Below the pieces are notes generated by a model. The model had not been told where the DNA came from. It made no database searches and worked only from the letters and a program-made list of their open reading frames with translations. Position numbers and translations under genes: made by a program. This document shows positions 2 to 16,538 of a stretch of DNA of 33,023 nt, piece after piece; the stretch's first letter is position 1; the number at the start of each line of letters is the position of its first letter. The stretch comes from a bacterium. GTDB taxonomy: Bacteria; Sysuimicrobiota; Sysuimicrobiia; Sysuimicrobiales; Segetimicrobiaceae. Location of the stretch: assembly GCA_035295165.1 (NCBI GenBank), contig DATGJN010000028.1, forward strand, positions 1-33,023, given 5' to 3'.

Positions 2-85
2 GGGGAAGACGATCAGATACGGCCGTCGGGCGATGACGCCGGCGGCCGCGGGAGAGAAGAACAACAACAATGCGAGAGGTGGTGA
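2..85 (+). CDS. Possible C-terminal tail of an upstream gene (partial)
   Basis: An open frame enters from the left edge and stops at TGA 83-85, overlapping the next start by 16 nt. The tail would be hydrophilic and rich in Asp, Gly, Arg, Glu and Gln. Short overlaps of this kind are the rule between genes in this operon, which is the only support. There are too few residues to assign a family, and the stretch could equally be leader sequence. Confidence 0.25.
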   Translation, partial: GEDDQIRPSGDDAGGRGREEQQQCERW

Positions 86-630
86 TAACAGGCAAACACG
101 AAAGAGATTCACCCTCCACCGAACCGGGGCAGGCTCAGACGGCGCTGATTGCCACCCCGACATCAGACGCATTTGCCGCATTCGAGGCGACCCTGACGCC
201 TCCACAACGTACCCAATGGGCACCGATTAGGGCATCCATGGTGCAGCCCCAAGCCGCGCCATCGGCTGGCTCAAGGTCACATGGGAGCCTGGCCACCCCG
301 GCGCCGCTCCCGGCTTGGTTGTCGTGGCAGGTCCAGACAGAACAGAGCGGAGGCGGAACGCTCGTCTCCTACACGCTCCAAAACACCGGCCAGGTCACTG
401 TAGTGCTCGATCTAGCGCGACTAAAAGTGACAACATCAGCGGGGAGTGACGTCTCTGTGTCGCTTACCCGGCAGGACACAAGTGGATTGGAAGGCCGGAT
501 TCCGCCGGGAGGGGCCGAGTCAGGCGTGATCCGGGTCGGCCCTGCACAAGGGAAGGTTCTGATCTCATGGCCGGTGGTTACGGTAGGCACCAATGCCAAT
601 ACGTACCTCGTCTCCCAGACGATCCCGTGA
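70..630 (+). CDS. Small pilus-locus protein with QR helical motif and C-terminal beta domain
   Basis: This 186-residue protein of unknown function has an ATG at 70, downstream of a purine-rich stretch (gagagaag). An in-frame stop at 34-36 shows that it does not extend left. Residues ~34-56 form a helix-like segment with FAAFEATLTPPQR. Residues ~83-186 form a predicted beta-rich domain with SYTLQNT, an I-x-x-G-x-x-E-x-G motif and GKVLISW. The same two elements occur in the proteins at 7344-8432 and 15342-16538, so it is a shortened paralogue lacking their N-terminal domain. Unlike them it has no visible signal peptide. Its stop overlaps the GTG of the next gene. A role as an accessory pilus or envelope protein is inferred only from context. 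Confidence 0.7.
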   Translation: MREVVITGKHERDSPSTEPGQAQTALIATPTSDAFAAFEATLTPPQRTQWAPIRASMVQPQAAPSAGSRSHGSLATPAPLPAWLSWQVQTEQSGGGTLVSYTLQNTGQVTVVLDLARLKVTTSAGSDVSVSLTRQDTSGLEGRIPPGGAESGVIRVGPAQGKVLISWPVVTVGTNANTYLVSQTIP

Positions 631-1097
631 GCAAGTCGATCGAGAAGAAATTGAGCCCGAAGCTGGTGCGCGGACTGGACGTCTGCGGCCTGTGGCACCA
701 GAAATTCGAGGATCCACCTCACGGGCACTTCGCCAACGGCAAAGCTCGATTCACACGACCGCGCCCGTTCGACTACATCGCGGTCGCCCGTGGATACGCG
801 ATCGAGGTCAAAGCGACTCGCGGCACGTCGTTCGCGCTGCGGCCGCGCCAGGACAAGGAATTGGCGCGATTCGAGCGTCTCGGAGCCGGGGAAGCAGTGG
901 TCGCGGTGTTCACCCAGGACGGTCGCTGGTGGACACTTTGGTGGCTGCCGTATCGGGCGTACGCCGCGTTCCTGCGACGACGCCATCGGAAGTCATTCCC
1001 GGTCAAGGCACTCCTCGACCATGCTGTCCGGTGCGCCCGCGCCGACGGAGCATTCATCCCGCCCATTGGTGAGATTGAGGTGGCGCATGCGGGTTAG
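627..1097 (+). CDS. RecU/Hjc-like PD-(D/E)XK nuclease (possible Holliday-junction resolvase)
   Basis: The 156-residue product starts at GTG 627, which overlaps the previous stop (GTGA). The N-terminus is basic (SKSIEKKLSPKLVRG). The centre reads FDYIAVARGYAIEVKATRG, in which a D followed about 12 residues later by E-x-K matches the PD-(D/E)XK active site. It is followed by a basic/aromatic stretch and a Gln (RPRQDKEL), as in RecU and archaeal Hjc resolvases, which cut branched DNA. VVAVFT..GRWWTLWWLPY would supply later core strands. Family placement comes from motif reading by eye; other VRR or RecB-like nucleases are possible. It lies within the pilus operon, between a pilus-specific protein and two exported proteins, which suggests action on DNA taken up through the pilus, but this is inference. 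Confidence 0.65.
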   Translation: MSKSIEKKLSPKLVRGLDVCGLWHQKFEDPPHGHFANGKARFTRPRPFDYIAVARGYAIEVKATRGTSFALRPRQDKELARFERLGAGEAVVAVFTQDGRWWTLWWLPYRAYAAFLRRRHRKSFPVKALLDHAVRCARADGAFIPPIGEIEVAHAG

Positions 1098-1782
1098 CGG
1101 GATGCGAGTAGCAGCTCTCGGTGTGGCCGTGCTCGTCGTTGCCGCAATGGCTGCGACTGCGTGGGCGCAATTCCCCGCGGGGACGACAGCGGCGGTGTTG
1201 AGCTTTATCGACGCTGATGGAGGCCACGTGAGCGTGAACCGCCACTGGTACGGGGCTGGTGGGCAGGACACGCAGGTCTACCCGTTCACTCCGTACTTCT
1301 GGAACAGCTGCCTGCCGGGGGACGGAGCGATCATGACGCTCATCACGAGTCCGGTAGGGTACCCGCCGCCCGGGCTCACGAGCTCAGGCGCCTACACGAC
1401 CCAGTTCCTCGACAAACTCAGCCAGCAGATTACTCAAGGGCTGCAGTCCGCCTCACAGTCCCAGAGTGATCCGAAGTTGCAACAGATGATCGCTGGGATG
1501 AGGACGCCAGGGAATCCTGCCTACGAAGCCTTGAAGGTAGGGCTTGGGCAGGTGAATACCCTCAACTACTACGAGGACTACGGCTATGCGACGTTTCTCA
1601 TGATTAGGTGGGAGTGGAAATGGCCATTCCCAGGTTGCTATCCCACGATTGTGACCGTTCCAGAGGGTTATGGCATCCCGTTCGTCTCGCTGGTGCAGCA
1701 ACAGCAAGGAGATCAACAGGTGGCCGCCACACAGCCATTCTTACCGCTGCCAACAGCCGGAACTTGGGTGAGACGCCGATGA
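1087..1782 (+). CDS. Exported protein of unknown function
   Basis: The 231-residue product has a clear N-terminal signal peptide: MRVSGMRVAAL, a hydrophobic core, then ATAWA before QFPAG. ATG 1087 lies about 4 nt after gaggtgg and overlaps the nuclease gene by 11 nt; ATG 1102 is an alternative. The mature part is rich in Tyr, Trp, Pro and Gly (PYFWNSCLPGDG, YYEDYGYATFL, WEWKWPFPGCYP). It has a Gln/Ser-rich helix in the middle (residues ~105-130) and two Cys that could pair after export. I do not recognise a family. The gene ends in an ATGA overlap with the next exported protein, so the two are probably co-translated. Its place ahead of pilC suggests a surface, adhesin-like or minor pilus component. 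Confidence 0.7.
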   Translation: MRVSGMRVAALGVAVLVVAAMAATAWAQFPAGTTAAVLSFIDADGGHVSVNRHWYGAGGQDTQVYPFTPYFWNSCLPGDGAIMTLITSPVGYPPPGLTSSGAYTTQFLDKLSQQITQGLQSASQSQSDPKLQQMIAGMRTPGNPAYEALKVGLGQVNTLNYYEDYGYATFLMIRWEWKWPFPGCYPTIVTVPEGYGIPFVSLVQQQQGDQQVAATQPFLPLPTAGTWVRRR

Positions 1783-2291
1783 CCCGCTACCGGTTCGGTC
1801 TTTGTGTGACTGTGTTGATCATCTTGGCCGGGAGTATAGTGAGCGCTGCTCCAGCGTGGCCGGTCTACTACACGGCTGATGGAGTGGGCGTCAGTATGCC
1901 ACCGGACTGGAGTGTTGTAGTCTCCCCATCAGGGCTCTTGGTTATGGCGGGTCCAAAAGCCGCTTGGGGACGGCCCGTTGCGGCCGTCTCGGTGTTGACG
2001 GGACAAGGACAAGGCCAGCTACTCATGGACCGCGTGACCCCGATGGTCGGGGATCCCTCCCAACTTCGCTTGCTGGGGATACAGCAGCTCGCAGCTGACC
2101 GAGAGGCCAAGTACTATCTCCGGACCGGGAACGAGAAAACCGGTCAGGCGGAGGCCTACGTAATGATCGGGACGGTCTCGGGCCACAAGTTCAGCGCGGT
2201 GGTCGTCGGGATCGATCCGACCAGCGATCCCAACCTGCGGACCCGTGCCGGCGTCCTGCAAGCACTCCTCCTCCGACTCGTCCTTCCCTAG
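1779..2291 (+). CDS. Exported protein of unknown function
   Basis: The 170-residue product starts at ATG 1779 within an ATGA overlap. The first ~30 residues form a signal peptide (MTRYRFGL, hydrophobic core, VSAAPAWP). The mature protein begins with a beta-rich segment (YYTADGVGVSMPPDWSVV). Its later features include AWGRPVAAVSVLTG, AKYYLRTGNEK and GHKFSAVVVGIDP. The pattern YxxxxxGVxMxxPxxWxxx resembles small secreted proteins in which a peptide around a Pro-Asp-Trp motif folds as an alpha/beta domain, but I cannot name the family. The gene closes the block of non-core genes before pilC, with 42 nt in between. A pilus-accessory role is inferred from position alone. Confidence 0.65.
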   Translation: MTRYRFGLCVTVLIILAGSIVSAAPAWPVYYTADGVGVSMPPDWSVVVSPSGLLVMAGPKAAWGRPVAAVSVLTGQGQGQLLMDRVTPMVGDPSQLRLLGIQQLAADREAKYYLRTGNEKTGQAEAYVMIGTVSGHKFSAVVVGIDPTSDPNLRTRAGVLQALLLRLVLP

Positions 2292-2321
2292 GTTCCCTCC
2301 AACACTTGGGTGTATCCGCGA

Positions 2322-2327
2322 TATGGT
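2322..2327 (+). promoter_or_regulatory. Possible -10 element (TATGGT) just upstream of pilC
   Basis: TATGGT lies 6 nt before the pilC ATG, the spacing expected of a leaderless promoter. There is no good -35 hexamer, and the adjacent ggtag could act as a weak ribosome site instead. Low confidence. Confidence 0.2.
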
Positions 2328-2333
2328 AGAGCC

Positions 2334-3539
2334 ATGCCGAAAATTACCTATGTTGCCCTCACCCGCACTGGGGAGACCGTCAGTGGTGTAATGGAAGCCG
2401 TCTCGACCAGAGAGGCGTTGGCCCAGCTCCGTGAACGTGGGACGACGCCGCTGGACGTCACCGCTGGGATGTCGTTCCGGATTCACCGGCGCGTCAATCG
2501 CGCGCAAGCGGCCCAAGTGCTCCGCCGGCTCGCGACAGTCGTCGCTCGCGGTGGCGCTCCGTTGGCGGAAATTCTGCCGTCGTTGGTCGACGAAGAAGAT
2601 CTCCCGCATGTCCGAACCGTATTGGCAGGCGTGCGAGACTCGATCCTGCGAGATTCGCTCCCAATGAGCCGCGCGCTAGGCCGTTACCCCGAAGTATTCC
2701 CGAGCGTGGTGACCAGCCGTATTGCCGCCGGTGAAGCGGCAGGAGCGTTGGACAACGCGTTGGAGGACGCCGCGCTCTTCCTTGAGCAGGGCGTGCGCAC
2801 CCAGAGCCGGTTGATCGGCGCGCTATCGTATCCGATCGTGATCATCTCCTTGGCGCTCATTATCGTGTCGGTGCTGTCCGCGACAATCATGCCGCGGTTC
2901 GTGACGTTCTACGCGCAATCAGGAGTACCGTTGCCGCTCGTGACCCGGATCGTCGTAGGGTTCGGTCTCGCACTCGCTCACTGGTGGTTCTTGGTGATTG
3001 GGTTTGTGATCGGCGCGGGGTGGGGGGCGCGGCGTCTCTTGGCGCGCCAGGACGTTCGAGATCGGCTGGACTACATCCGGTGGAATCTGTGGGGGTGGCG
3101 GCGGGTCGAGCGCGCACTGGCGTGGAGCCGGTGGGCGCAGGCCATGACCATGCTGTATGCACAAGGGACCGAGATTCTTCATGCGCTCCAGTTGGCGTGC
3201 GACGCTTCAGGGACCGCGGTGATCCGAGATGTCTCGGATCTGCTGGTGCGCCGGATGAGCGAGCAAGGTCATCTACGTGAGGCCTTGGATGAAGCGGGAG
3301 TCTTCCCTCCGATTCTCCGTACATCGGTCGGGGTGGGAGAGCGCTATGGCACCATCCGAGAAATGTTGAGCGAAGCCGCTACCTGGTACTCAAGAGAAGC
3401 GGAGACGATTCTGGAGCAGTTGCCGAACCTGTTGCAACCGATAGCGGTAGTGATCGTCGGCGCCCTAGTAGGGTTCATGGTGTTAAGTCTCTACACGCCG
3501 ATGTTCAACATGTACGGCGTAATCAATCAGCTTCACTAA
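2334..3539 (+). CDS. pilC: Type IV pilus inner-membrane platform protein PilC (GspF family)
   Basis: PilC is the polytopic inner-membrane platform on which the PilB and PilT motors act and from which pilin is added or removed. The 401-residue length matches the family. Two repeated T2SSF domains are visible, each followed by a hydrophobic segment. Domain 1 covers residues ~60-190 (LRRLATVVARGGAPL, then SRIAAGEAAGALDNAL), with a membrane segment at ~163-185. A second membrane segment (~210-235) precedes domain 2 (WAQAMTMLYAQGTEIL, then SVGVGERYGTIREML), and a C-terminal membrane segment begins IAVVIVGALVGFMVL. The start is ATG 2334; GTG 2310 in the same frame would add 8 residues. It is followed after 34 nt by pilT. 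Confidence 0.95.
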   Translation: MPKITYVALTRTGETVSGVMEAVSTREALAQLRERGTTPLDVTAGMSFRIHRRVNRAQAAQVLRRLATVVARGGAPLAEILPSLVDEEDLPHVRTVLAGVRDSILRDSLPMSRALGRYPEVFPSVVTSRIAAGEAAGALDNALEDAALFLEQGVRTQSRLIGALSYPIVIISLALIIVSVLSATIMPRFVTFYAQSGVPLPLVTRIVVGFGLALAHWWFLVIGFVIGAGWGARRLLARQDVRDRLDYIRWNLWGWRRVERALAWSRWAQAMTMLYAQGTEILHALQLACDASGTAVIRDVSDLLVRRMSEQGHLREALDEAGVFPPILRTSVGVGERYGTIREMLSEAATWYSREAETILEQLPNLLQPIAVVIVGALVGFMVLSLYTPMFNMYGVINQLH

Positions 3540-3573
3540 GGTCTAATCGTCAATCAAAGTAAAGGTGGGGGCG

Positions 3574-4761
3574 ATGGCACGATCGACAACGCCATGGGGA
3601 ACAGATCTTGAGTCTGAGGAGTGGACCGGCCCAGATCTTGCCGACTCGCGAATTGTGGCATGGCTCCGTTACGGGCGAACGGTGGGCGCAAGTGATCTGC
3701 ACCTCAAGCCAGGAGCGCCACCTAATTTGCGGGTAACGGGCGCGCTCACCCCGATCGAGGGCGCCGCAGTGCTGACGGGGCAAGCGATCTCCGAGATGAT
3801 GGGATTGCTCGTAGGCGGCAAGGTGAGTTGGTCGGACTTCATGCTACAGCGACACGAACTCGACGTTGGGCTCGAGCCGGGAGGGGTTGGGCGGCTTCGC
3901 GTCAACGCGTTGTTCGACCGCGGCCAGCCTGCGGTCGCGATACGGCTGATCCCGCAGACGATCCCGGCGCTGGACACGCTCGGGCTACCAGCGATCACAA
4001 CGTCGCTAGTGCGCCGGCAAAAGGGGCTGTGGATCTTTACCGGGGCGACCGGGCACGGAAAGACGACCACTCAGGCGGCCATTCTAAGAGCTATCTTGAA
4101 CGACCGTCCCAGGCACGTCATCACGCTGGAAGACCCGATCGAGTACACCCACGAGCACGGTGGTGGATTGATCAGCCAGCGTGAAGTCGGCTGGGACACT
4201 GAATCATTCGAGCAAGGCATCGTGAGCGCGCTGCGTGAGGATCCCGACGTGATCCTGGTCGGTGAGATGCGAGACTTGGAGACGATCCGACAAGCGCTAC
4301 GCGCGGCTGAAACAGGCCACCTGGTACTAACGACACTCCATACAGTGGACGCATCCCTCGTTCCAGACCGCATCATCGACGTGTTCCCTGCGACGCAGCA
4401 AGCGCAGATTCGGATCCAGTTGAGCGATGTCCTTATGGCCGTGTACGCGCAGCAGCTGGTGCGGACCAACCGACCGGCGGAAGAAGGAGAAGCCCTCGAT
4501 CTCAGTGGGCGGATTGCTGCGGTCGAAGTGCTCTTGGGGCCGATGGCTGAACTGTACCCGGCGCGGGCGATGATCCGAACACCATCCGCAGGGACGTTGT
4601 ACACGTTGATGGAGCAAAGTCATCGCGCGGGCTGTCAGACAATGGAGCGGGCGCTGGTCGAACTGGTTGAGGCCGGGAAACTCACCGAAGCGGCGGCCCG
4701 GGAAGCCGCGATCCGGCGCGACACGTTCGATCGCCTTATGCAGGCAAAAGGGATGGCATGA
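3574..4761 (+). CDS. pilT: PilT-like pilus retraction ATPase
   Basis: This cytoplasmic hexameric ATPase drives pilus depolymerisation. The 395-residue product has the PilT N-terminal motif ASDLHLKPG and the stretch VAIRLIPQTIPALDTLGLP. It also has Walker A GATGHGKTT (about residues 157-164), the Asp box LEDPIEY, Walker B DPDVILVGEMRD and the His box TGHLVLTTLHT. The GEMRD form of Walker B is typical of PilT rather than PilB. The Walker A has His where PilT usually has Ser, a minor variation. ATG 3574 is preceded by aaaggtgggg; GTG 3565 would add three residues. The N-terminus has about 20 extra acidic residues. The gene overlaps the next prepilin gene by ATGA, so motor and pilins share a transcript. 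Confidence 0.95.
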   Translation: MARSTTPWGTDLESEEWTGPDLADSRIVAWLRYGRTVGASDLHLKPGAPPNLRVTGALTPIEGAAVLTGQAISEMMGLLVGGKVSWSDFMLQRHELDVGLEPGGVGRLRVNALFDRGQPAVAIRLIPQTIPALDTLGLPAITTSLVRRQKGLWIFTGATGHGKTTTQAAILRAILNDRPRHVITLEDPIEYTHEHGGGLISQREVGWDTESFEQGIVSALREDPDVILVGEMRDLETIRQALRAAETGHLVLTTLHTVDASLVPDRIIDVFPATQQAQIRIQLSDVLMAVYAQQLVRTNRPAEEGEALDLSGRIAAVEVLLGPMAELYPARAMIRTPSAGTLYTLMEQSHRAGCQTMERALVELVEAGKLTEAAAREAAIRRDTFDRLMQAKGMA

Positions 4762-5174
4762 AACGGCGGCGTGGTTCCACGCTAATCGAAGCGCTGATGG
4801 CGGCCGTAATCGTGGCCGTAATTGGCGGGCTCGTGGTGATCGCGCTGGCGGAGGCGGGCCAAGCAGGCCAGCGCGCTATGGTGGCTGCACAGGCGCGCCG
4901 GGTGCTACAGCAGGAACTCGAGCAGGCTCGGAGCGGCCGCGGAGTCCCGACGAGTGGGACAACGGGGCCATTCACGGTTACGGTAACGACGTCGACGAAT
5001 ATCCAGCCGGCCATGATCGGCGGACCGTGGACGCCGGACTGTTACGGGGGTAGCCCATGCAGCAACGGCATCACGACAAGCACAATGTACGCGCTCACAT
5101 ATGTGAAGGTCGTCGTTAGTTACACGGCCGACGGGACGGTGGTGGCGAGTGGAACGACTACGACTCCTCCATAA
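4758..5174 (+). CDS. Minor prepilin-like protein (class III signal)
   Basis: The 138-residue product has the short basic leader MKRRRG, then STLIEALMAA and a ~25-residue hydrophobic helix. This is the prepilin peptidase site (cleavage after Gly6, Glu5 of the mature protein present). The first mature residue is Ser rather than the usual Phe/Met, as in some minor pilins. The C-terminal part is Thr/Gly/Ser-rich and beta-like, with two Cys (DCYGGSPC) that could form a small disulfide loop. The start overlaps the pilT stop. It probably forms part of the tip or initiation complex together with the next four proteins, in the manner of the PilV/PilW/PilX or GspH-K sets. Confidence 0.85.
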   Translation: MKRRRGSTLIEALMAAVIVAVIGGLVVIALAEAGQAGQRAMVAAQARRVLQQELEQARSGRGVPTSGTTGPFTVTVTTSTNIQPAMIGGPWTPDCYGGSPCSNGITTSTMYALTYVKVVVSYTADGTVVASGTTTTPP

Positions 5175-5937
5175 GGCTCAACGTGGGCAGGCACTCCTCG
5201 GCGCTTTGATCGTCGTCGTGATCCTTGGTGTTCTGACGGCCTCCTTGACGACGTTGGCGATCGAAGGTCAGCAGGCGGGTACAGTGGCGCGGGATCAATT
5301 GACGGCCCAATCCATTGCCGAGACCGGGATCAATGCTGGGCTGGCGACGGTGCAGGCGACATCCCAGAACGCGTTTACGAACAACTTATTCACGGTGACG
5401 AAGAGTTATGCGCAAACATGGGTGACCGGGGTGGGGTCACCGTGTAGCGCGAGCTCCGTTGCGTACAACATCGGGGACATGTTCTATCACTACTTCCCAT
5501 TCACACCCTCGGCCGGACAACCCATTATCAACACGATTCAAAGGAGCTCTCCGCCAGCATCGGGGAATTGGATCCGGCTTTGGGATGCCGTGGCGGGCCC
5601 CGGCGGGCAGACGTATACGTGGGAAGTGCAAGCGGGCATCGAAGGCGTTGGATCTCCGTGCCCAACGTGGAACGACAACGGTTCGCAGACCATCATGATG
5701 TACCCGATTGGCGCGTACGCGTTCGCGTGGGTATGGGGACCGCAGGGCCAGGTGCTCGGGGAAATGACCGAATACACGCCGTCAGCGACTCCTGGCTACG
5801 TGGTGATGACGTACACGGACTGCCCAGCGTACTACCAACCGTCAACGTGCAACTATCCGACCGCGGTGCAGGTCGCAATCCCGGCCGGCGAGCTTCTCTG
5901 GGACGACCCCAATGTGTCGACGCCTACAGAGCCGTAG
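5149..5937 (+). CDS. Large minor prepilin-like protein (PilX/GspK-type)
   Basis: This 262-residue protein starts at GTG 5149, inside the end of the preceding gene (26-nt overlap). The leader MERLRLLHKAQRG is followed by QALLGALIVVVILGVLTASL, a type IV pilin-like signal whose mature residues begin Q-A-L and lack Glu5. Lack of Glu5 is a known feature of the tip-type pseudopilin GspK and of some PilX proteins. The large soluble domain is rich in aromatic residues and has five Cys. Its size and missing Glu5 suggest the tip or priming pseudopilin, but this rests on analogy. The neighbours on both sides are prepilins. Confidence 0.8.
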   Translation: MERLRLLHKAQRGQALLGALIVVVILGVLTASLTTLAIEGQQAGTVARDQLTAQSIAETGINAGLATVQATSQNAFTNNLFTVTKSYAQTWVTGVGSPCSASSVAYNIGDMFYHYFPFTPSAGQPIINTIQRSSPPASGNWIRLWDAVAGPGGQTYTWEVQAGIEGVGSPCPTWNDNGSQTIMMYPIGAYAFAWVWGPQGQVLGEMTEYTPSATPGYVVMTYTDCPAYYQPSTCNYPTAVQVAIPAGELLWDDPNVSTPTEP

Positions 5938-6421
5938 AGGGTTCGTCCTCGCTGAGTTACTCATTGTGGTCGCGATCTTGGCGATTATCGCCGCGATCGG
6001 GATATCAGGTTTTGTCCGGTCGCAAGAAGCGGGGACGCTCCGGCAGGGCGAGATGCAAACGGCGGCGATTCTCCGGGACGCTATCGTGCGCGCGGATGCT
6101 CCAGACGCAGCGGCATCAGGCGGAATCCAGGCGCAGATCGTCTTCGCCGCGGGGAGCGCGACCGTGGCGGAACAGATTCAGACGAACGGAGGAGGATGGG
6201 TCAACGTGACGCCGGCGGGGGCCAGTCTACAGCTCCCGGCGGGGGTCACGGTCCAAAGCACGACATGGACGGGGAACACCGCTCAAGTGAATCCTGGAGA
6301 TACCAGCACGGGGACGTACGAAGCATATCACACGACCGTGGCGGGGTCGGTTACCTTGACGACCACGCACGGCATGACGGCAACGGTGTACGTTACCGGA
6401 GCCGGTACTGTGTGGTACTAA
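5912..6421 (+). CDS. Minor prepilin-like protein
   Basis: The 169-residue product starts at ATG 5912 and overlaps the previous gene by 26 nt. The leader MCRRLQSRRG ends in Gly, followed by FVLAELLIVVAILAIIAAIGISGF, so cleavage site, Phe1 and Glu5 are all present. The rest is Ala/Gly/Thr-rich with a beta-repeat texture and lacks Cys. It resembles GspH/FimT- or PilE-type minor pilins. I see no sequence feature that decides which position in the pilus it occupies. Confidence 0.85.
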   Translation: MCRRLQSRRGFVLAELLIVVAILAIIAAIGISGFVRSQEAGTLRQGEMQTAAILRDAIVRADAPDAAASGGIQAQIVFAAGSATVAEQIQTNGGGWVNVTPAGASLQLPAGVTVQSTTWTGNTAQVNPGDTSTGTYEAYHTTVAGSVTLTTTHGMTATVYVTGAGTVWY

Positions 6422-6442
6422 AGGAAGAAGTGGAGGATCCCG

Positions 6443-6886
6443 ATGCGACGGCAGAGAGCGTTTACGCTCGTGGAAACGATCATCGCGATGGGGGTCGTGC
6501 TCATCCTTGGTGCGATTGCTTACGCGTCGTACGCGGGGATCGAGGCGCAGAGCCGCGATAAGGCTGGCGTCTCGATAGCCGACGGGGTAGCACAAAACCT
6601 CGGGCACTATGCCGCGCTCAACGGTGGATTGTATCCGACGGGGCGGACATCGGCGTCGTGGGCAACAATTATGGGCGATCTTGGGACGCTGGCCGAGTAC
6701 AGCGCCACCGCTCCGACGACATTCACGGGATCAGGCGGTTTCCTCGTGTACGATACGGCCGGGAACACGTTCCAGATCGAGTTCTGGGCCAGCGGCGGGT
6801 CTGGCGCGGTGTACTGCCGCACGCCGAATGGACTGGCGCAGATCACGAAGCAGAATAGTGATGGCCCGTGGACGGGCTGCCCCTAA
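6443..6886 (+). CDS. Prepilin-like protein (Ala at the cleavage site)
   Basis: The 147-residue product follows gtggaggatcccg and ATG 6443. The leader MRRQRA is followed by FTLVETIIAMGVVLILGAIAYASY, giving Phe1 and Glu5, but the residue before the cut is Ala, not the usual Gly. A compact C-terminal domain contains FLVYDTAGNTFQIEFWASGG and two Cys (VYCRTPNG and WTGCP at the C-terminus). This layout, with a disulfide near the C-terminus, resembles the GspG/PilE type. It is close in design to the next gene and to pilA at 10354, suggesting tandem duplication and divergence. Confidence 0.85.
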   Translation: MRRQRAFTLVETIIAMGVVLILGAIAYASYAGIEAQSRDKAGVSIADGVAQNLGHYAALNGGLYPTGRTSASWATIMGDLGTLAEYSATAPTTFTGSGGFLVYDTAGNTFQIEFWASGGSGAVYCRTPNGLAQITKQNSDGPWTGCP

Positions 6887-6899
6887 AGTGGATGGTTCC

Positions 6900-7334
6900 A
6901 TGAGACGTCGGCAGGCATTCACCCTGGTCGAGCTGATCGTGACGCTCGCGATCGTGGTAATTCTCGCAGCGATCGCGATTCCGGTGTACAACACCGTCCA
7001 AGCGCAGGCACAGATCAAAGCGGATATCGCGGAACAGAACGTGTTGGTCCAAGCGCTTTCCTCGTACTACGCGGTCAATGGCTGCTATCCGAACGGACCG
7101 CGCGGGACAGGCAATATGCCCACGAACCTCGGCCCGTACGTCGGCAATACGTGGCCCGGTAATATGACGTACGTGACATTCATGAATGGTGGCTGGGTCA
7201 ACTCGAGTAGCGGTGCGGTGAATTACGTGGGGGTCCTCGCTAACAGTGTGCTCACGCAGTCGGGGTCGTGGACCGGCGGCACGGCAGTGTTTAATGGCGT
7301 GTCTACGGGCGCCACAGTACTGGAGTGCCCGTAA
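6900..7334 (+). CDS. Prepilin-like protein (Ala at the cleavage site)
   Basis: The 144-residue product is called from ATG 6900; an in-frame GTG at 6888 would add four residues. The leader MRRRQA is followed by FTLVELIVTLAIVVILAAIAIPVY, a textbook pilin helix with Phe1, Glu5 and Pro22, again with Ala before the cut. After the helix comes LVQALSSYYAVNGCYPNGP, the alpha-helix-to-loop pattern of GspG-like major pseudopilins. A second Cys lies three residues from the end (LECP), so one C-terminal disulfide is likely. It follows the preceding prepilin gene by 13 nt. Together with pilA (10354) it is one of the two proteins most like a major subunit. Confidence 0.85.
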   Translation: MRRRQAFTLVELIVTLAIVVILAAIAIPVYNTVQAQAQIKADIAEQNVLVQALSSYYAVNGCYPNGPRGTGNMPTNLGPYVGNTWPGNMTYVTFMNGGWVNSSSGAVNYVGVLANSVLTQSGSWTGGTAVFNGVSTGATVLECP

Positions 7335-10290: not shown

Positions 10291-10300
10291 CAGCGTGAAG

Positions 10301-10332: not shown

Positions 10333-10353
10333 GCTAACCTCCTCCCGGTCAGG

Positions 10354-10875
10354 TTACTTGCACGTGACGCCGACGGTCGTCGGCGTTCCGGCCGCTCCGA
10401 GATCGACAGTTCCGTGGATCGGGTCCATGCAGAGCACATGGGTATTGCCGCCGGTGGCCTGGGCCACAATTGTGAACGTGGCTGGCGTCGTGGTATTGAT
10501 CGGCTCGTACGTCCAACTCGATGTGATGATGTTTGCCGCGGCCGTGGTGGGCGGCAAGTTGCTGGCGCCCGCGGTGGCAAGGTCGGTCACAAGGCCGGCC
10601 CAACTAGTCGCGCCGGTATTGGCTGTCGCGGCGACGTTCGCTGAATCGGTCGGGAACGCGCCAGTGGCTGACGCGGACTCGGAGGAGATCATCCCCGTGT
10701 ACACCTGCTGCATCAGTTCATCCAGAGCTGCCGTTCTCGCGTTGGCGACCTGGCCGATGTATGTTGCGTAGGCGACGGAGCCTAGGATGAGAACGACCGC
10801 CATAGCGACAACGAGCTCGATCAGTGTAAAGCCACGACGCCGGTCATGCAGGCGCCGACTCAACAGCTGGAACAT
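10354..10875 (-). CDS. pilA: Type IV pilin, probable major subunit
   Basis: The 173-residue prepilin has the leader MFQLLSRRLHDRRRG, then FTLIELVVAMAVVLILGSVAYATYIG. Cleavage Gly, Phe1 and Glu5 are all present. The soluble domain is Ala/Thr/Ser-rich, and the last third holds two Cys (HVLCMDP and GVTCK), giving the C-terminal disulfide loop typical of type IVa pilins. It has the best ribosome site among the prepilin genes (GGGAGGTG at 10880-10887 on the minus strand), its own upstream region and a hairpin before pilB. All three fit a strongly expressed major subunit. The assignment as major subunit is inferred; the proteins at 6443 and 6900 are alternatives. Confidence 0.9.
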   Translation of the reverse strand: MFQLLSRRLHDRRRGFTLIELVVAMAVVLILGSVAYATYIGQVANARTAALDELMQQVYTGMISSESASATGAFPTDSANVAATANTGATSWAGLVTDLATAGASNLPPTTAAANIITSSWTYEPINTTTPATFTIVAQATGGNTHVLCMDPIHGTVDLGAAGTPTTVGVTCK

Positions 10876-10879
10876 ACGA

Positions 10880-10887
10880 CACCTCCC
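10880..10887 (-). promoter_or_regulatory. Strong ribosome binding site of pilA
   Basis: GGGAGGTG on the minus strand lies 4 nt before the ATG at 10873-10875. It is one of the strongest Shine-Dalgarno matches in the window, consistent with an abundant pilin, and supports the chosen start. Confidence 0.7.
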
Positions 10888-10956
10888 ACGTAGCCCGGCG
10901 AAATGGGTGAAGCGAATGGGTGCCGGACGGTACGCATGCAGATACGGTAGCAGATC

Positions 10957-11008
10957 CTCTTAAGGAAGGGGGAGACAACCTACGCTATGGGAGGTTGTCT
11001 CCTAAGAG
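10957..11008. promoter_or_regulatory. Large bulged inverted repeat in the pilA-pilM divergent region
   Basis: An 11-bp perfect inverted repeat (10971-10981 with 10992-11002, ggagacaacct) surrounds a 10-nt loop. Outside it, a further 6 bp pair (10957-10962 with 11003-11008, ctctta/taagag), leaving an 8-nt purine bulge on the left arm only. It lies between the divergent pilA and pilM starts, so it can act on either transcript or bind a dimeric regulator. It lacks a following T run, so a terminator is less likely. Confidence 0.6.
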
Positions 11009-11020
11009 CAAATGGGACTG

Positions 11021-11029
11021 TGGTACGGT
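11021..11029 (+). promoter_or_regulatory. Possible extended -10 promoter (TGGTACGGT) of pilM
   Basis: TGn followed by TACGGT (11024-11029) ends 7 nt before the pilM ATG, the geometry of a leaderless transcript. There is no Shine-Dalgarno sequence for pilM, which fits, but no convincing -35 either. Confidence 0.3.
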
Positions 11030-11036
11030 CATAGAC

Positions 11037-11885
11037 ATGGTTGGTATCGATTTGAGCCTTTCCCCGATCATCTGGGCCGCGCCCTCGAGGCGTGGCATGG
11101 TCCACGGCACCCTCGAGCGGCCGGATCCGGAGGCGCTAACGGAGGCCCTCCGGGTCGCCGATGTGCGCGATCGTATGATTGCGCTAGCCGTCCCCACGCG
11201 GGACGTCCGCATCGGCATGCTGGCCAAAGGATTAGTGGGAGCCCGAGCACGGCGCGCCGCGACGTTGGCGGCTGCCCAGCAATTGCGGATCGACCCGGCC
11301 GTGGTCGCGGTGAGTCTCGACCATCATGGCAGTGAAGGCACGGCGTATGTTGCCGCGCCGACGGACACCGTCGCCAAGTGGGTGGCGCCGTGGTCGGCGG
11401 ATCGGTGGCGCGTCTCAGTGGTGGAGCCGGCGGGGACCGCGCTGTTGAGGGAGGCCGGGAGAGACACCGTGGAGTTGTTTGTCCGGACGGGGGCAGGAAC
11501 GCTCGATGTGGTGGTCGGGAGCCGGACTCGATGGGTCCTGGCCCGCACTGTCGATCTCGATTGGGAACACAACCTGCCGAGCGCGCGCGTGGAGGTGGAA
11601 GACACGATTACGCTCGTCCGCAAAGTAGGGGTGGAGTTGGGCGGGCTTGTCGTCGGCGGCGCCGGAGCAGCGGGGATCTTAGCAGACGCGCTCTCCACGC
11701 TTGGGACTATCCGGCCACTTATGGTTGGGGCAGGACTGGATGCCGATCTGCCACCAGAAGCACTCGTGGCGGCATCGGTAGCGCAGTGGGACCGCCAGCG
11801 ACGCAGCCAAAAAGGGCTAGGGTGGAGCGATAGGATGCCGGGGCTGACGCGGCTGTGGCGGCGGAGGCGATCGAATGCGGCATAA
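11037..11885 (+). CDS. pilM: PilM-like actin-fold pilus assembly ATPase
   Basis: PilM is a cytoplasmic FtsA/actin-like protein that binds the N-terminus of PilN and links the motor to the alignment complex. The 282-residue product begins MVGIDLSLSPIIWA, the phosphate-1-like strand of the actin fold. It also contains GGLVVGGAGAAGILADAL, resembling the late glycine-rich nucleotide loop. It is short for the family (about 350 residues) and the middle is divergent, so nucleotide binding is uncertain. The assignment rests strongly on its position immediately before pilN-pilO-pilP-pilQ. ATG 11037 is chosen because homologues start at M-x-G-I-D; the open frame continues upstream to GTG 10920 but would read through the inverted repeat. 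It overlaps pilN by 11 nt. Confidence 0.8.
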   Translation: MVGIDLSLSPIIWAAPSRRGMVHGTLERPDPEALTEALRVADVRDRMIALAVPTRDVRIGMLAKGLVGARARRAATLAAAQQLRIDPAVVAVSLDHHGSEGTAYVAAPTDTVAKWVAPWSADRWRVSVVEPAGTALLREAGRDTVELFVRTGAGTLDVVVGSRTRWVLARTVDLDWEHNLPSARVEVEDTITLVRKVGVELGGLVVGGAGAAGILADALSTLGTIRPLMVGAGLDADLPPEALVAASVAQWDRQRRSQKGLGWSDRMPGLTRLWRRRRSNAA

Positions 11886-12396
11886 CTTGATAGTTCGTGA
11901 CACGACGCGGCCCATCGCGATCGTCCTGTGGGCGCTCGTAGCGCTCGTCTCAATGCTGACGGTGGCTCAGGCGATGGCTGTTCGGAACGAGGTGCACACG
12001 TTGCGCCTCATTGTGAGCGCCGCGCAGGCTCGGGTCACGCAGTTACAGGCTCGGGCTGCAGAGGCTGACGCACGGGTGGCTCCGTTCCAACAAGCGAGTG
12101 AAATCGCCGCACAACTCGGGATGGATACCATCGAGCCTACGATGTTGCGGCAGGTCGAGCCGCAGGTCCCGACAGACATTTGGTTTACGGACGTCACGAT
12201 GAGCCGCGATACGATCGGGGTCGATGGTCGCGGGCTGTCACTTGAAAGTATCGCCAAAACAGCAGAAGTGCTGCGAAATACCGCCGGGATCGCGTCGGTG
12301 CAGGTCACGGTTGTCACGAAAGCCGTGGAGGGCTGGTATAGCTTCCATATCGTTGCCCACCCGCAATCGCCATCGAAGGGAGGCCCGCGACCATGA
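11875..12396 (+). CDS. pilN: PilN-like alignment protein
   Basis: The 173-residue protein has a short cytoplasmic N-terminus (MRHNLIVRDTTRP), one membrane helix (~14-36), a coiled coil rich in Ala, Gln and Arg (~38-70) and a C-terminal ferredoxin-like beta-alpha-beta region (IWFTDVTMSRDTIGVDGRGLSLESIAKTAEVL in broken form). This is the PilN layout. The usual INLLP motif that binds PilM is not obvious; HNLIV may substitute. PilN and PilO form the inner-membrane dimer connecting PilM with PilP and PilQ. ATGA coupling to pilO (4-nt overlap) suggests tightly matched translation. Confidence 0.8.
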   Translation: MRHNLIVRDTTRPIAIVLWALVALVSMLTVAQAMAVRNEVHTLRLIVSAAQARVTQLQARAAEADARVAPFQQASEIAAQLGMDTIEPTMLRQVEPQVPTDIWFTDVTMSRDTIGVDGRGLSLESIAKTAEVLRNTAGIASVQVTVVTKAVEGWYSFHIVAHPQSPSKGGPRP

Positions 12397-12989
12397 AACG
12401 GCGCCTCCTGTGGTGGGTCCCGCTATTGCTAGCCGTACTGGTGGGGGCCGGCGGCCATATGTTGTTGATCGGCCCGGTTCAGCGGGACATCGGGAAGCTC
12501 CGGCTACAGCTTGGCGCGTTGCAGGCCCAGCAGATCCAAGCGGAAGCGCGGATTACCAGAGACACGCGTGTAGAGCAGGTCCCGTTGCCGATTAGCGACT
12601 CGGGGTTAGACCGCGTTTGGCCAGGGCTTGCGAAAGACGTTGAAACTCATGGGTATACGGTCCAACTCCTGTCATTCGTTCCCGGGATCTCTGGCCGGAC
12701 GCGTACCCTGACGCTGACCTTGCGGCTGACCGGCTCGTACCTGGCGATGAACGACACACTCATCACGATCAATAAAATGATCCCGTTGTGGAGCTGGCGC
12801 ACCCTCGAAGTTCAGTCGCAGACGGGGACGGACGTTACGGTGGTCGCTACCGGGGTGCTGCCATTGACCGGAGCCCCGGTAGTGGGGGTTGGAACGGCTC
12901 CGACACAACCAACGCAGCCGGGGCAGCAGGGGCCCACGCCTCCGCCTGCTCCTCCATCGCGACAGGCACCCGGAGGTCCACGTCCATGA
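12393..12989 (+). CDS. pilO: PilO-like alignment protein
   Basis: This 198-residue bitopic protein has a membrane helix at ~5-27, a coiled coil ~30-55 (DIGKLRLQLGALQAQQIQAE) and a periplasmic ferredoxin-like domain (~60-160). The domain includes LTLTLRLTGSYLAMNDTL, the strand-helix transition conserved in PilO. The tail after ~165 is unusually rich in Pro, Gln and Gly, and is longer than in most PilO proteins. It is predicted to heterodimerise with the preceding PilN. The gene sits between pilN (ATGA overlap) and the PilP-like gene (ATGA overlap). Confidence 0.8.
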   Translation: MKRRLLWWVPLLLAVLVGAGGHMLLIGPVQRDIGKLRLQLGALQAQQIQAEARITRDTRVEQVPLPISDSGLDRVWPGLAKDVETHGYTVQLLSFVPGISGRTRTLTLTLRLTGSYLAMNDTLITINKMIPLWSWRTLEVQSQTGTDVTVVATGVLPLTGAPVVGVGTAPTQPTQPGQQGPTPPPAPPSRQAPGGPRP

Positions 12990-13591
12990 AGAACAATACG
13001 TTGCGCCGGGCTGCAATTGGGCTCGTAACCTTAGCCATGGTGGGAGTCATTGTGCGACCTCAAGGAGTACTCGGTCAGTTGGCCGGGCAAACTTCTGGAG
13101 GGGCAGCACACACGACTACCGCCCCCGTTCCAGCTACTCGACCAAGCGTGGGGGCTCCAGTCACAACGGGGCGGCGTGACCTGTTCGCGCCACCGCCTGG
13201 GGTGGCAACGGGCGCGCACGCAGGCAGCACGGGTGCCGCAGTACCGTCGATGCCAGGGCCACAGATCGGGTCCATCTCTCTTCCGCCACTTCCGGGAGCC
13301 GTAGGGATCGGCCCCGCGTCGGCCCCACCGGCGCTTTCTGGCCAAGGAGGGCAGGGGACGCCAACAGCTCCCACCATCGAATTGCGCGGGGTCGCTCTCG
13401 GACGTACACCACAGGCGGTGCTGGTATCCGGTGGGACATACGCGATTGTCACGGTAGGGCAGAAGACGGATTGGGGCACGGTGACAGGCATTACCGCTAC
13501 GACGGTTACCCTTAGGATGGATAGCGGGTCGCGTACACTAAGGTTCGAGACACCACATCCAGCAGCAACGACACAGACGGGGAGCCACTAA
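12986..13591 (+). CDS. pilP: PilP/GspC-like periplasmic linker protein
   Basis: The 201-residue product has a basic N-terminus, a hydrophobic signal or anchor (~8-30) and a long low-complexity Pro/Gly/Ala/Thr linker (~35-120). A C-terminal HR-like beta domain (~125-190) reads IELRGVALGRTPQAVLVSGG, IVTVGQKTDW and TVTLRMDSGSRTLRF. The motif RRDLFAPPPG early in the linker matches the xDPF segment that precedes HR domains in PilP and GspC. There is no lipobox Cys, so it is probably anchored by its signal helix rather than as a lipoprotein. PilP joins the PilN/PilO complex to PilQ. The stop overlaps the pilQ start by 1 nt (TAATG). Confidence 0.7.
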   Translation: MKNNTLRRAAIGLVTLAMVGVIVRPQGVLGQLAGQTSGGAAHTTTAPVPATRPSVGAPVTTGRRDLFAPPPGVATGAHAGSTGAAVPSMPGPQIGSISLPPLPGAVGIGPASAPPALSGQGGQGTPTAPTIELRGVALGRTPQAVLVSGGTYAIVTVGQKTDWGTVTGITATTVTLRMDSGSRTLRFETPHPAATTQTGSH

Positions 13592-15330
13592 TGCGGACAC
13601 TTCTGGCCCTACTGACGGTTCTCACCCTGGGCGCAACGATGGCGCTGGCGGCGCCCACGCCCGCGCGCCCCGCAGCGACGGGTGTCGCGACATTGACGGT
13701 TGACCTAGTGGACGTGCCGTTGACCGACGCGCTCTCGATCCTGGCGCGGACCGCGCATATCAATCTGGTCGTTCAAGGCGCGATGACCGGGACGGTGACA
13801 TTGCGCGTCGCGAACCAAACGGTTGATCAGGCGCTCGCGGTGCTCGCAAGCACCTATCGCCTTGACGTCAGCCGGGTCGGCCCGACGTACATCGTGCGCC
13901 AGTTGGCCGGTGACGCTATCCGGATCGCGCCCGCACAGGTCGGCTCATCCGATGTGGTTGTGCGTACCTACAATCTGCGGTACGCGTTGGCGAGTGAGGT
14001 CGCATCAGAGATTCGAACGCTTCTTGGCGTTTCCCCCGCTACGAATACCCAACAGGCGACCGTGATCGGGCAGCCGCCGACAGCCCCACAAGGTGGCGGG
14101 AGCTCAGGGGCAGGCTCGACGACCGGGACAGGAACGACGCCCACGAACGGCGGCACTGGGGCTCCATCGGGCGGCGGATATACAGCTCCAACCTCAGCAG
14201 CACCGCCGGCGTCGACCGCGCCGAGTAGTCCTAGCCAAGCGACAGGTGGGCAGGCTACACAGAAGGGCGTGGCCGTGGCGAGCGATGACCGGACGAACAG
14301 CATCACTGTGGCGGCCTCATTCGATCTTCAAGTCCAAGTCCAGGATGCGATCCTCCGACTCGACCGTCCAACTGGCGGGCCACAGATTGTGACCCCTCAC
14401 GGGAGTAACGCGCCAGCCCCGCAAACCGGCAGCTCGAGTGGTGACCCGGTAGTGGGAGCGCGGGTCTCGAACGGGACCTACCGCTACGATATCCGCTACG
14501 CCGACCCTCAGTCGATGGCAAGCGCAGTCTTGAATCAGGTGAACGGCGTCACGGTGCTCGTGGATCTTCGGACAAACTCCCTGTACGTAACAGGCGACTC
14601 CGGACTACAGCGGCAGGTGAGCGCGATCCTGAGCACGCTCGATAGCCCAAGCGTCCAGATCATGATTCAGACGGAGATCCTGGACATCTCGAAATCGGCG
14701 TCCAGCAACCTCGGGATTCAGTGGTCGTGGCAGCCATTCTCGCTGAGTCAGATCGCGACGGGGAACCAGTTGCAGGGGTCAGGCGTGTACCCGATCGTAG
14801 CGACACTGAACACGCTCGTAACCCAAGGGGAAGGAAGAGTCCTCGCAAACCCGCAGGTGTCGACGCAAAATGGGGTCCAGGCGACGATCAACGTCGGCGA
14901 AACGCTGTACATCCCGGTGACGACCACCACGAATGGCGTATCGACGACAACGCTGACCACGGTCAACGCTGGGATTCTGTTGTTAGTGACCCCACGGCTC
15001 AACGGCAACGGGATGGTCACAAACTCGCTCAACGTGCAGGCGAATAGCATCTCGGGGTACACGCCGCAGGGGTACCCGGACATCACCCAACGCTCTGTGA
15101 GCTCGATCATCACGGTTCACGACGGGGAACCCATCCTGATCGGCGGGTTGATCTCCGATAGCACGACCAAAGCGATCCAGAAGATTCCCGTCCTGGGTGA
15201 CCTCCCGTTGGTCGGATCACTGTTCAAGTACACAACAACGGACCACACATACGACAACATCGTGATGATCCTGACCCCCAGGTTGATTACGCCGCGGAAC
15301 GGCGCAGTCCTGGGATCAGGAACGCATTAG
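13591..15330 (+). CDS. pilQ: PilQ secretin (outer-membrane pilus pore)
   Basis: The 579-residue secretin forms the multimeric outer-membrane gate. It has a signal peptide (residues 1-20, ending ALAA) and an STN/N0-like domain (VDVPLTDALSILARTAHINLVV, then VTLRVANQTVDQALAVLA). A first NolW-type domain is interrupted by a ~75-residue Gly/Ser/Thr/Pro linker (~155-230), and a second NolW domain begins YDIRYADPQSMASAVL. The C-terminal secretin beta-barrel domain contains RVLANPQVSTQNGVQATINVG, VHDGEPILIGGLI and IPVLGDLPLVGSLFKY, and ends VMILTPRLI. The VLGDxPxxGxLF motif is the secretin signature. No AMIN domains are visible, unlike proteobacterial PilQ. It is the fifth gene of pilM-N-O-P-Q. Confidence 0.95.
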   Translation: MRTLLALLTVLTLGATMALAAPTPARPAATGVATLTVDLVDVPLTDALSILARTAHINLVVQGAMTGTVTLRVANQTVDQALAVLASTYRLDVSRVGPTYIVRQLAGDAIRIAPAQVGSSDVVVRTYNLRYALASEVASEIRTLLGVSPATNTQQATVIGQPPTAPQGGGSSGAGSTTGTGTTPTNGGTGAPSGGGYTAPTSAAPPASTAPSSPSQATGGQATQKGVAVASDDRTNSITVAASFDLQVQVQDAILRLDRPTGGPQIVTPHGSNAPAPQTGSSSGDPVVGARVSNGTYRYDIRYADPQSMASAVLNQVNGVTVLVDLRTNSLYVTGDSGLQRQVSAILSTLDSPSVQIMIQTEILDISKSASSNLGIQWSWQPFSLSQIATGNQLQGSGVYPIVATLNTLVTQGEGRVLANPQVSTQNGVQATINVGETLYIPVTTTTNGVSTTTLTTVNAGILLLVTPRLNGNGMVTNSLNVQANSISGYTPQGYPDITQRSVSSIITVHDGEPILIGGLISDSTTKAIQKIPVLGDLPLVGSLFKYTTTDHTYDNIVMILTPRLITPRNGAVLGSGTH

Positions 15331-15341
15331 GAGGCGGGCGC

Positions 15342-16538
15342 ATGCGTACTTACGAGAAGTCCATTCTGACGGGAGCGGTGAGCGCCGGCCTCATCGTGGC
15401 ACTCTCGTTGCTGATGGCAACGAGTTCAGCGCCGGCATGGGCGGATGGCCTTGGTGGGAGTCAGATCACGGTGAATCAGGATACCGTGACCTCGACCCCA
15501 TACGATCTGACGCTGTCCCCCAACGGTGAGTTCCGAGTGATCCATTTTGACGCGGGACTCGTGAGCTCAGTGCTGGTGGCGAAGCCGTGGCTGCTCACGG
15601 TTTTGATCCAGGGCAACGACGTCGTGCTGCAGTCGAAAGCAACGAGCGGTGACACGCAGTTGGTCGTCTATGTCGGCGCCGTTGGGACGTTGTGGCACGT
15701 CACCATTGGAGCACATGGCGCTGTAGCCACACGGATTCTCGTGCGAGCCCCAGGCGCCGAGCCGGTGACGATGAGCACTCCGACGCCCCCTCAGCCTACA
15801 ACGGTTGCAGTCACAACACAGCGCCCAACGATCGGACCGAACCCGCAGCTCACTGCATTTCTCAGCACGCTGTCGGCCGCCCAGCGAGCAGGGTGGAATG
15901 CGTGGCAGAAGAGTCCATCTGGAACCGGCCTGGCTGATTGGGTCGCGGGACTATCGCCCGCGCAGCAGACGGCATTCAACACTCTCGTGCAGGAAGGGAT
16001 CGTAACGGTCCCGTCAATCCTAGGAGCGCAGCCGGGAGTGCCAGCCATCCCGCCGATGGTCGACACAACCACCGTGTTGGGACAGCAGCCGACCATGGCA
16101 CCAACGATACCGCCAGCAACAGCTGTACCGGTACGGCCAATGGTGGCAGGTGCTTCAGACCCAGTCGGCAACCAAACAGCACCGGTGAGTGGAGTGGTTG
16201 TCACAGGCGCTCCCGAAGGAGTCCTAGTAACGGCAACAGCAGCCCCAACGGCCAAAGGGATAGAGGTTCGCTACACGATTCACAACGGGCTGACCGTTGA
16301 TCTCGGCAACGCTGAAGTTACCGCTACCGATGGGGTAGGACACGATGCAACGGTAGCCGGTATTCCCACAAGGAAGATCGCCGCGGGGCAGGACTTTTCT
16401 GGCACGGTGATCGTCCAGGCTACACACTCGCCGATCACGCTGAAGTGGACGTGGGGCCGGTGGGCGCACGCCAAGACGTGGTTCGTGACATACTCGCTGC
16501 CGAACGGAATGATTCACTTCACGCTGACTGTGTCATAG
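15342..16538 (+). CDS. Secreted two-domain protein, paralogue of the protein at 7344-8432
   Basis: This 398-residue protein follows aggaggcgggcgc and ATG 15342. The signal peptide is at ~1-35 (GAVSAGLIVALSLLMATSSAPAWA). Residues ~50-140 form a beta domain related in layout to the CpaC-N-like domain of its paralogue (SSVLVAKPWLLTVLIQGNDVVLQS, DTQLVVYVGAVG). Two helical repeats follow (LTAFLSTLSAAQRAGWNAW and LADWVAGLSPAQQTAFNTL), then a Pro/Val/Thr linker. The C-terminal beta domain (~300-398) has RYTIHNG, IAAGQDFSGTVIV and ITLKWTWG. It is directly downstream of pilQ (11 nt). A periplasmic or outer-membrane partner of the secretin, such as a stabiliser or pilotin-like factor, is the simplest inference. 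Confidence 0.75.
   Translation: MRTYEKSILTGAVSAGLIVALSLLMATSSAPAWADGLGGSQITVNQDTVTSTPYDLTLSPNGEFRVIHFDAGLVSSVLVAKPWLLTVLIQGNDVVLQSKATSGDTQLVVYVGAVGTLWHVTIGAHGAVATRILVRAPGAEPVTMSTPTPPQPTTVAVTTQRPTIGPNPQLTAFLSTLSAAQRAGWNAWQKSPSGTGLADWVAGLSPAQQTAFNTLVQEGIVTVPSILGAQPGVPAIPPMVDTTTVLGQQPTMAPTIPPATAVPVRPMVAGASDPVGNQTAPVSGVVVTGAPEGVLVTATAAPTAKGIEVRYTIHNGLTVDLGNAEVTATDGVGHDATVAGIPTRKIAAGQDFSGTVIVQATHSPITLKWTWGRWAHAKTWFVTYSLPNGMIHFTLTVS

Follow-up and report, generated by a model that had tools for sequence, protein, structure and literature searches.

The 33,023-nt contig DATGJN010000028.1 (assembly GCA_035295165.1; Segetimicrobiaceae, phylum Sysuimicrobiota), hereafter the window, is an entire contig (C28) of a 4.79-Mb draft genome (G000) and carries a type IV pilus (T4P) locus. 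In this locus an initial annotation singled out three proteins, P1 (70-630), P2 (7344-8432) and P3 (15342-16538), whose open reading frames (ORFs) are present at these positions. We consider it probable that P2 and P3 are VirB9-like periplasmic ring subunits, recruited beneath the PilQ secretin of a second, probably element-borne T4P that is possibly linked to DNA transfer. VirB9-type domains were known before in the core complexes of type IV secretion systems (T4SSs) and, recently, in Tad pilus machines; if our reading is true, a type IV pilus locus of the PilM-Q kind would here include complete VirB9/TraK-like proteins as conserved paralogues.

Common ancestry of P1, P2 and P3

On the evidence of their sequences, P1, P2 and P3 share common ancestry. 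The C-terminal domains of P1 and P2 are 32% identical over 105 aa (BLASTP, E 6e-7) and P2 and P3 are 28% identical over 219 aa (E 4e-6); BLASTP returned no match between P1 and P3. Comparison of the C-terminal domains by hhalign on two-sequence profiles gave 95% for P1-P2 (E 2.7e-8), 76% for P1-P3 (E 2.4e-5) and 33% for P2-P3 (E 4.4e-4), and the maximum of 60 control comparisons with other locus proteins was 3.3%. The paralogy and the common C-terminal beta domain proposed in the initial annotation are thus borne out by BLASTP, by pairwise and profile alignment with significant similarity, and by the predicted folds.

The helical motifs that had been described as common to all three proteins are also found. 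The strict form, F-x3-L-x3-Q-[RQ], matches once in each protein; shuffling any of the three sequences is expected to produce such a match in no more than 0.16% of cases. All five full-length proteins, namely P2, P3, a relative of each, and a relative of P1, have two relaxed copies (F/L-x3-L-x3-Q) with a spacing of exactly 27 residues. This pair is absent from every other relative tested, including the wider family that was found by profile search and is labelled c0 here. In the tree, the P-type proteins (together with L018p) and the c0-type proteins are split by a branch supported at 100/99; the grouping of P1-P3 among themselves is supported at just 57/44, and the P1 relative and L018p form long branches.

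Predicted folds and family assignment

AlphaFold2 (AF2) models of P3 and P2, computed from five-sequence alignments of the window and L114 proteins, have the same order of elements: an N-terminal beta domain, helices and a C-terminal beta domain, joined by disordered linkers. The local pLDDT values of these three parts are about 77, 80 and 60 in P3 and about 76, 78 and 78 in P2. In a Foldseek search of the PDB, all ten P3 matches with E < 0.001 are VirB9-family chains of T4SS core complexes, comprising TraK (7spb/7oko), DotH (7mue/7muc), TrwF (8rt6/7o3t), X. citri VirB9 (6gyb) and CagX (6x6j); the matched chains of the Dot/Icm and plasmid entries are those that we take to be DotH and TraK, respectively. 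The top match of P2 is F-plasmid TraK (E 5.1e-12, 310 columns), and its further matches include DotH, TrwF, X. citri VirB9 and CagX, as well as AMO/pMMO subunits and adaptin ears. Superposition of the N domain by itself on the N-terminal domain (NTD) of TrwF/VirB9 gives TM scores of 0.64-0.69. In the AF2 models and Foldseek alignments, P2 and P3 thus comprise two beta domains, the first of them a beta-sandwich of about nine strands, and a flexible linker in an overall fold like that of TraK, a scaffold of the peripheral ring whose two globular domains are joined by a flexible linker (PMC8770708).

The signal peptides annotated in P2 and P3 are visible by eye, with a hydrophobic N terminus and an AxA-type site that also occur in the P1 relative, and the two proteins may be exported. 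They differ from VirB9, TraK, TrwF, DotH and CagX in being encoded in a T4P locus without VirB7 and VirB10, and they add a helical module, the paired L-x3-Q motifs and long Pro/Ala-rich linkers. The initial annotation had known no named component with such an architecture. It is in fact recognisable, because the folds of P2 and P3 match VirB9, TraK, DotH and CagX and relatives occur in T4SS-like operons.

Several points weigh against this assignment. Similarity of the C-terminal domain extends to many Ig-like sandwiches (adaptin ears and, for P2, AMO/pMMO subunits); therefore, only the N domain is specific for VirB9. The models are of modest confidence (mean pLDDT 56 and 66), and they are not fully independent, because their alignments share rows. 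P1-P3 have no Pfam match above cut-off and do not reach the cut-offs of the curated VirB9/CagX/TraK profiles, for which the best sub-cut-off scores in relatives are E 0.0011 (CagX) and E 0.0068 (TIGR02781). Neither VirB7 nor VirB10 is found in the window, and the N-terminal region of the full-length P1 relative has no match to the other N domains (hhalign <1%). Because the curated cut-offs are not reached and the window holds no VirB7 or VirB10 partner, P1-P3 are classed here as VirB9/TraK-like and not as VirB9. Elsewhere, VirB4 and VirB10-like partners accompany c0 relatives (loci L080 and L081) and the P1 relative, on whose contig they lie; VirB7 was identified at none of the loci examined.

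Pfam matches to MfA4_C, TraK_C and LTXXQ were rejected, all being below cut-off (P3 to TraK_C, E 0.048), and PHROGs gave nothing useful for P1-P3.

Relatives in T4SS-like operons

The family formed by the P proteins and c0 has at least one member in 15 of the 43 genomes of our phylum sample, all of which come from one order (profile search). A phylum of one class and one order that abounds in soils would agree with Sysuimicrobiota/CSP1-3 (PMC11604079). The c0 proteins consist of a signal peptide, a T2SS-T3SS_pil_N domain, a Pro-rich linker and a C-terminal domain of the same type as that of the P proteins. The T2SS-T3SS_pil_N domain (PF13629) is above the gathering cut-off in five relatives (P0007, P0009, P0010, P0012 and P0013), and P1, P2 and P3 do not reach this cut-off. 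With hhalign, the N domains gave 95% for P3-c0, 96% for P3-P0007 and 84% for P2-P0007, and a c0 profile searched against 1,184 other ORFs found P3 (E 1.9e-8), P1 (E 3.8e-5) and, weakly, P2. The CpaC-N-like domain that had been assigned to two of the proteins is therefore supported only through their relatives and these hhalign links; P2 and P3 themselves stay below the cut-off.

The c0 relatives hold the VirB9 position in T4SS-like operons. In two genomes (G012 and G041; L080 and L081), c0 and a SpoIIIAA/T2SSE-type ATPase gene head an operon with VirB10-like, TrbC/VirB2 (E 1.4e-15 in G012 and 9.8e-14 in G041), TraL/VirB3-like, TraC/VirB4 (TraG P-loop, E 2.2e-33 in G041) and VirB6-like genes, where VirB10 and VirB6 are assigned by position and layout, without Pfam support. 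This type of VirB4 is found in the same 15 genomes as the c0/P family. In most of these genomes VirB4 is followed, at a distance of a few kb, by a homologue of h3, a secreted protein encoded near P1 in the window, and one such homologue belongs to the T4SS-like operon of G041. The gene directly 3' of c0 encodes, in most genomes, a SpoIIIAA-type ATPase (stage III sporulation AA family), which occupies the VirB11 position in L080, L081, L070 and about ten similar loci. Among the literature matches listed, none links SpoIIIAA with VirB4/VirB9. This ATPase is a further lead.

These operons bear on the question of whether the N domain descends from the N domain of a Tad secretin (CpaC/RcpA) or from a CpaI-like protein, so that P2 and P3 would be CpaI-like secretin adaptors that later joined a T4P. 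RcpA, a Tad secretin, is reported to have an N domain that is itself VirB9-NTD-like (PMC10499894), and a model of the Tad machine places CpaI, a stand-alone small periplasmic protein with the RcpA N-domain fold, under the secretin CpaC (PMC13170226). CpaI and the RcpA/CpaC N domain thus share with P2 and P3 a VirB9-NTD-like domain tied to a pilus secretin. Furthermore, PF13629 is named for Tad secretins and is the top Pfam match of the relatives, the top PDB sequence match of the A2 profile is RcpA (E 0.014), and the genome of the window has a Tad-like locus (contig C103) that includes a secretin with PF13629. Nevertheless, we consider a Tad origin unlikely. The relatives lie in VirB2/3/4/10/11-like operons and not in Tad loci, the Tad secretin of the same genome is not among the matches listed for the c0 profile although its ORFs were in the searched set, and the two-domain form fits TraK over its entire length. 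CpaI is described as small; P2 and P3 are paralogous, add a helical module and a C-terminal domain, and are encoded in a type IVa pilus (T4aP)-like locus and not in a Tad locus. In the open-licence PMC literature, our search for VirB9-like parts of type IV pili found only Tad-pilus papers and a VirB7 paper.

The pilus locus and its distribution

The locus reads P1, a Holliday junction resolvase-like gene, h3, h4, pilC, pilT, five pilin-like genes and P2, followed by pilB and pilA on the minus strand and then by pilM-N-O-P-Q, P3 and pilD. As had been noted, each pilus transcription block except pilA-pilB carries at least one of the paralogues. The window pilus is a second, divergent type IV pilus of its genome, because an apparently canonical T4P locus (contig C113) and the Tad-like locus are also present. 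The GC content of the window is 60%, compared with 66-71% in the other stretches of this genome examined.

Intact copies of both P2 and P3, together with the pilus locus, were found in two of the 43 genomes. The only other genome with an orthologous locus is G028 (Bacillota bacterium isolate Centralia_MAG_45), in which PilQ is 57%, P3 44% and P2 37% identical to the window proteins. Its pilus contig C8 (JAJPJJ010000038.1; L012, L013 and L139) retains the pilus synteny, including the positions of P2 and P3; this answers the suggestion that relatives be sought beside pilQ in other genomes. A scan of genome contigs with PilQ returned the same isolate as the sole close relative, plus a distant Bdellovibrionales secretin, and a plasmid tblastn search with P3 and c0 queries gave no matches. 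The idea that the three proteins are a lineage-specific secretin or pilus partner consequently stands for a lineage-restricted partner. A secretin identity was rejected, since P1-P3 have no PF00263 match and PilQ is the only protein of the window that has one.

The P proteins could also be parts of a T4SS on the same mobile element that are merely co-located with the pilus genes and have no pilus role, which we regard as quite unlikely. P1, h3 and the resolvase do form a T4SS-type cassette, this cassette and the pilus lie on different contigs in G028, and on its left side the window stops where the contig does, hence T4SS genes could lie beyond that point. However, P3 begins 11 nt 3' of pilQ and ends 10 nt 5' of pilD, P2 lies directly 3' of the pilin-like genes, no T4SS gene adjoins P2 or P3, and both positions are kept in G028 despite the divergence of PilQ to 57%.

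It is very unlikely, in our opinion, that the proteins are generic assembly aids, pilotin-like or peptidoglycan-anchoring, that replace AMIN-domain or TsaP functions, with a VirB9 likeness reflecting a mere common beta-sandwich. In favour of this reading, the long N-terminal region that precedes N0 in the chromosomal PilQ is missing from the window PilQ, and the C-terminal domain is a generic sandwich. However, no LysM, AMIN or TPR domain match and no lipobox were seen in them, the match of the N domain is specifically to VirB9 NTDs, and relatives exceed the PF13629 cut-off. With T4aP accessory proteins (PilP, TsaP, FimV and AMIN-PilQ) they have in common that a periplasmic partner is encoded beside pilQ; they differ in having no LysM, AMIN or PilP-type domain match, and a separate PilP-like gene lies upstream of pilQ.

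The pilus contig of G028 encodes a DnaG-like primase, RecA and, by eye, a ribonucleotide-reductase-like protein (L139/L012), which suggests that it is an extrachromosomal element. It shares palindromic repeats of about 60 bp and a 146-bp repeat with contig C11 of the same genome, which carries T4SS genes; stretches from three further contigs of G028 did not yield these repeats. Because of these repeats, C8 and C11 may belong to one element, although this evidence is suggestive only. The G028 pilus locus also has an extra secreted-protein segment, h4-like by eye, between PilO and PilP (L013 853-2448). In G025 (contig C10, L014, about 9563-10896) the pilus locus is decayed, with fragments of PilT and of pilins and with a P2 homologue that is divided between two ORFs.

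P1 and its T4SS-type surroundings

P1 is 5'-incomplete, through truncation of the gene, a frameshift or a contig-end artefact. Its full-length relative on contig C11 of G028 (L083 8568-9659) has 363 aa and, by eye, a signal peptide; homology spans only residues 179-360 of this relative, beginning near window nucleotide 115, a TGA stands in frame 1 at 34-36, and the contig starts at 1. P1 had been taken as a short form, and a short domain variant was rejected because this full-length relative exists.

Contig C11 also carries a second VirB4, a VirD4-type T4SS-DNA_transf coupling protein (E 1.4e-29), an SLT transglycosylase, an actin-like ALP protein, a SpoIIIAA-type ATPase, a resolvase (phrog_1770, E 1.2e-33), h3, h4 and an integrase. 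Given these T4SS genes on the contig of its full-length relative, P1 may be no pilus part at all. The resolvases between P1 and h3 come from two different families, phrog_843 in the window (627-1097) and phrog_1770 in G028 (L083 9677-10180).

Proposed role of the P proteins

We propose that P2 and P3 are built like VirB9/TraK, with a VirB9-NTD-like (equivalently, T2SS-T3SS_pil_N-like) sandwich, a linker and a C-terminal sandwich, plus a helical module between the two sandwiches, and that they became fixed in the two rightward operons of the second T4P. By analogy with TraK and CpaI, the N domains of P3, and perhaps of P2, may form a ring under the N0/N1 rings of PilQ, a contact that we infer. 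CpaI under CpaC is a precedent for this arrangement, and together with the published likeness of the RcpA N domain to the VirB9 NTD it gives an independent frame. The helical modules, which are specific to the P proteins, could tie neighbouring subunits together or bind PilP/PilO or pilins, and the C-terminal domains could dock at the outer membrane or the secretin wall. The outcome would be a reinforced outer-membrane portal for the pilus. P1 would be a third member that arrived with a T4SS-derived cassette (P1, the Holliday junction resolvase, h3 and h4) at the 5' end of the pilC operon.

The intact P1 relative probably serves a conjugation-type T4SS, and the pilus may therefore assist DNA transfer. 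The association with the T4SS cassette and resolvases likewise suggests a role in DNA transfer or uptake. A type IV pilus is associated with conjugative elements of the R64, TP114 and PAPI-1 type (PMC9045228; PMC5297154). The association with conjugation is the likeness, as relatives here lie near coupling protein, VirB4 and integrase genes; the abstracts on those pili mention no VirB9-like components, and the gene content here is T4aP-like (PilM-Q and PilT).

A stronger form of this proposal is a hybrid machine, in which the secretin portal of a mobile-element pilus incorporates VirB9-type rings, two or three in number, that derive from a co-resident conjugation system, and in which the outer membrane is the site of a mechanical coupling between pilus and DNA transfer; we consider this possible, if rather doubtful. 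The findings suggest that the pilus machine has acquired some of its components from another kind of secretion machine. If the recruitment of P2 and P3 beneath PilQ is true, outer-membrane ring modules move between T4SSs and type IV pili, and the window offers a tractable case of secretin portal reinforcement in a poorly studied phylum.

Other features of the window

Table 1. Features of the pilus locus (window coordinates; L012 and L013, pilus contig of G028; L083, locus on contig C11 of G028)
Feature	Position	Strand	Evidence
P1, 5'-incomplete VirB9-like paralogue	70..630	+	BLASTP, hhalign, motif count; full-length relative in L083
P1 helical motif FEATLTPPQR	about 181-210	+	motif search
P1 C-terminal beta domain	about 310-624	+	BLASTP, hhalign
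Holliday junction resolvase-like protein, start overlaps P1 stop	627..1097	+	phrog_843 E 1.1e-6; PF03838 RecU E 0.0023, below cut-off
h3, secreted protein	1087..1782	+	homologues downstream of VirB4 in T4SS-like loci of the phylum
h4, secreted protein	1779..2291	+	homologue adjoins h3 in G028:C11, 37% over 140 aa
PilC (T2SSF)	2310..3539	+	PF00482 E 1.1e-35
PilT-like ATPase	3565..4761	+	61% to ortholog in L012
Five pilin-like genes	4758..7334 (4758-5174, 5149-5937, 5912-6421, 6443-6886, about 6900-7334)	+	N_methyl PF07963 in 5/5, above cut-off in 3/5
P2, VirB9/TraK-like paralogue with signal peptide	7344..8432	+	BLASTP, hhalign, AF2, Foldseek; signal peptide by eye
P2 N-terminal beta domain, residues 41-133	7464..7742	+	AF2 model; TrwF/VirB9 NTD 7o3t TM 0.69
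P2 helical module, residues 152-214, motifs at 158 and 185	7797..7985	+	AF2 model, motif search
P2 C-terminal beta-sandwich domain, residues 256-360	8109..8423	+	BLASTP, hhalign, AF2 model
PilB (T2SSE)	8515..10290	-	PF00437 E 2.1e-91
PilA-type pilin	10354..10875	-	PF07963 E 4.8e-9
PilM, PilN, PilO and PilP-like genes	10920..13591 (10920-11885, 11875-12396, 12393-12989, 12977-13591)	+	PilN PF05137 E 2.6e-7; PilM, PilO, PilP by gene order and synteny with L012/L013
PilQ secretin, N0/N1 domains, without VirB9-like N domain	13591..15330	+	PF00263 E 1.9e-40, PF03958, PF07660
P3, VirB9/TraK-like paralogue with signal peptide	15342..16538	+	BLASTP, hhalign, AF2, Foldseek; signal peptide by eye
P3 N-terminal beta domain, residues 41-135	15462..15746	+	AF2 pLDDT about 77; TrwF/VirB9 NTD 8rt6 TM 0.69, rmsd 2.7
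P3 helical module, residues 168-217, motifs at 173 and 200	15843..15992	+	AF2 model, motif search
P3 C-terminal beta domain, residues 285-384	16194..16493	+	BLASTP, hhalign, AF2 model
PilD-like prepilin peptidase	16549..17388	+	PF01478 E 0.018, below cut-off; synteny in L013

The features of the locus are collected in Table 1. A SpoVS-domain protein (PF04232, E 4.1e-28) is encoded just after pilD at 17309-17677. Further along lies a defence-like island (18075-32962). It comprises genes for type III restriction (18075-21131) and type III modification (21124-23742), a methyltransferase similar to type II (25691-26905), a protein that weakly matches restriction enzymes (27130-28653) and, on the minus strand, a helicase with an MkoA-like match (30479-32962).

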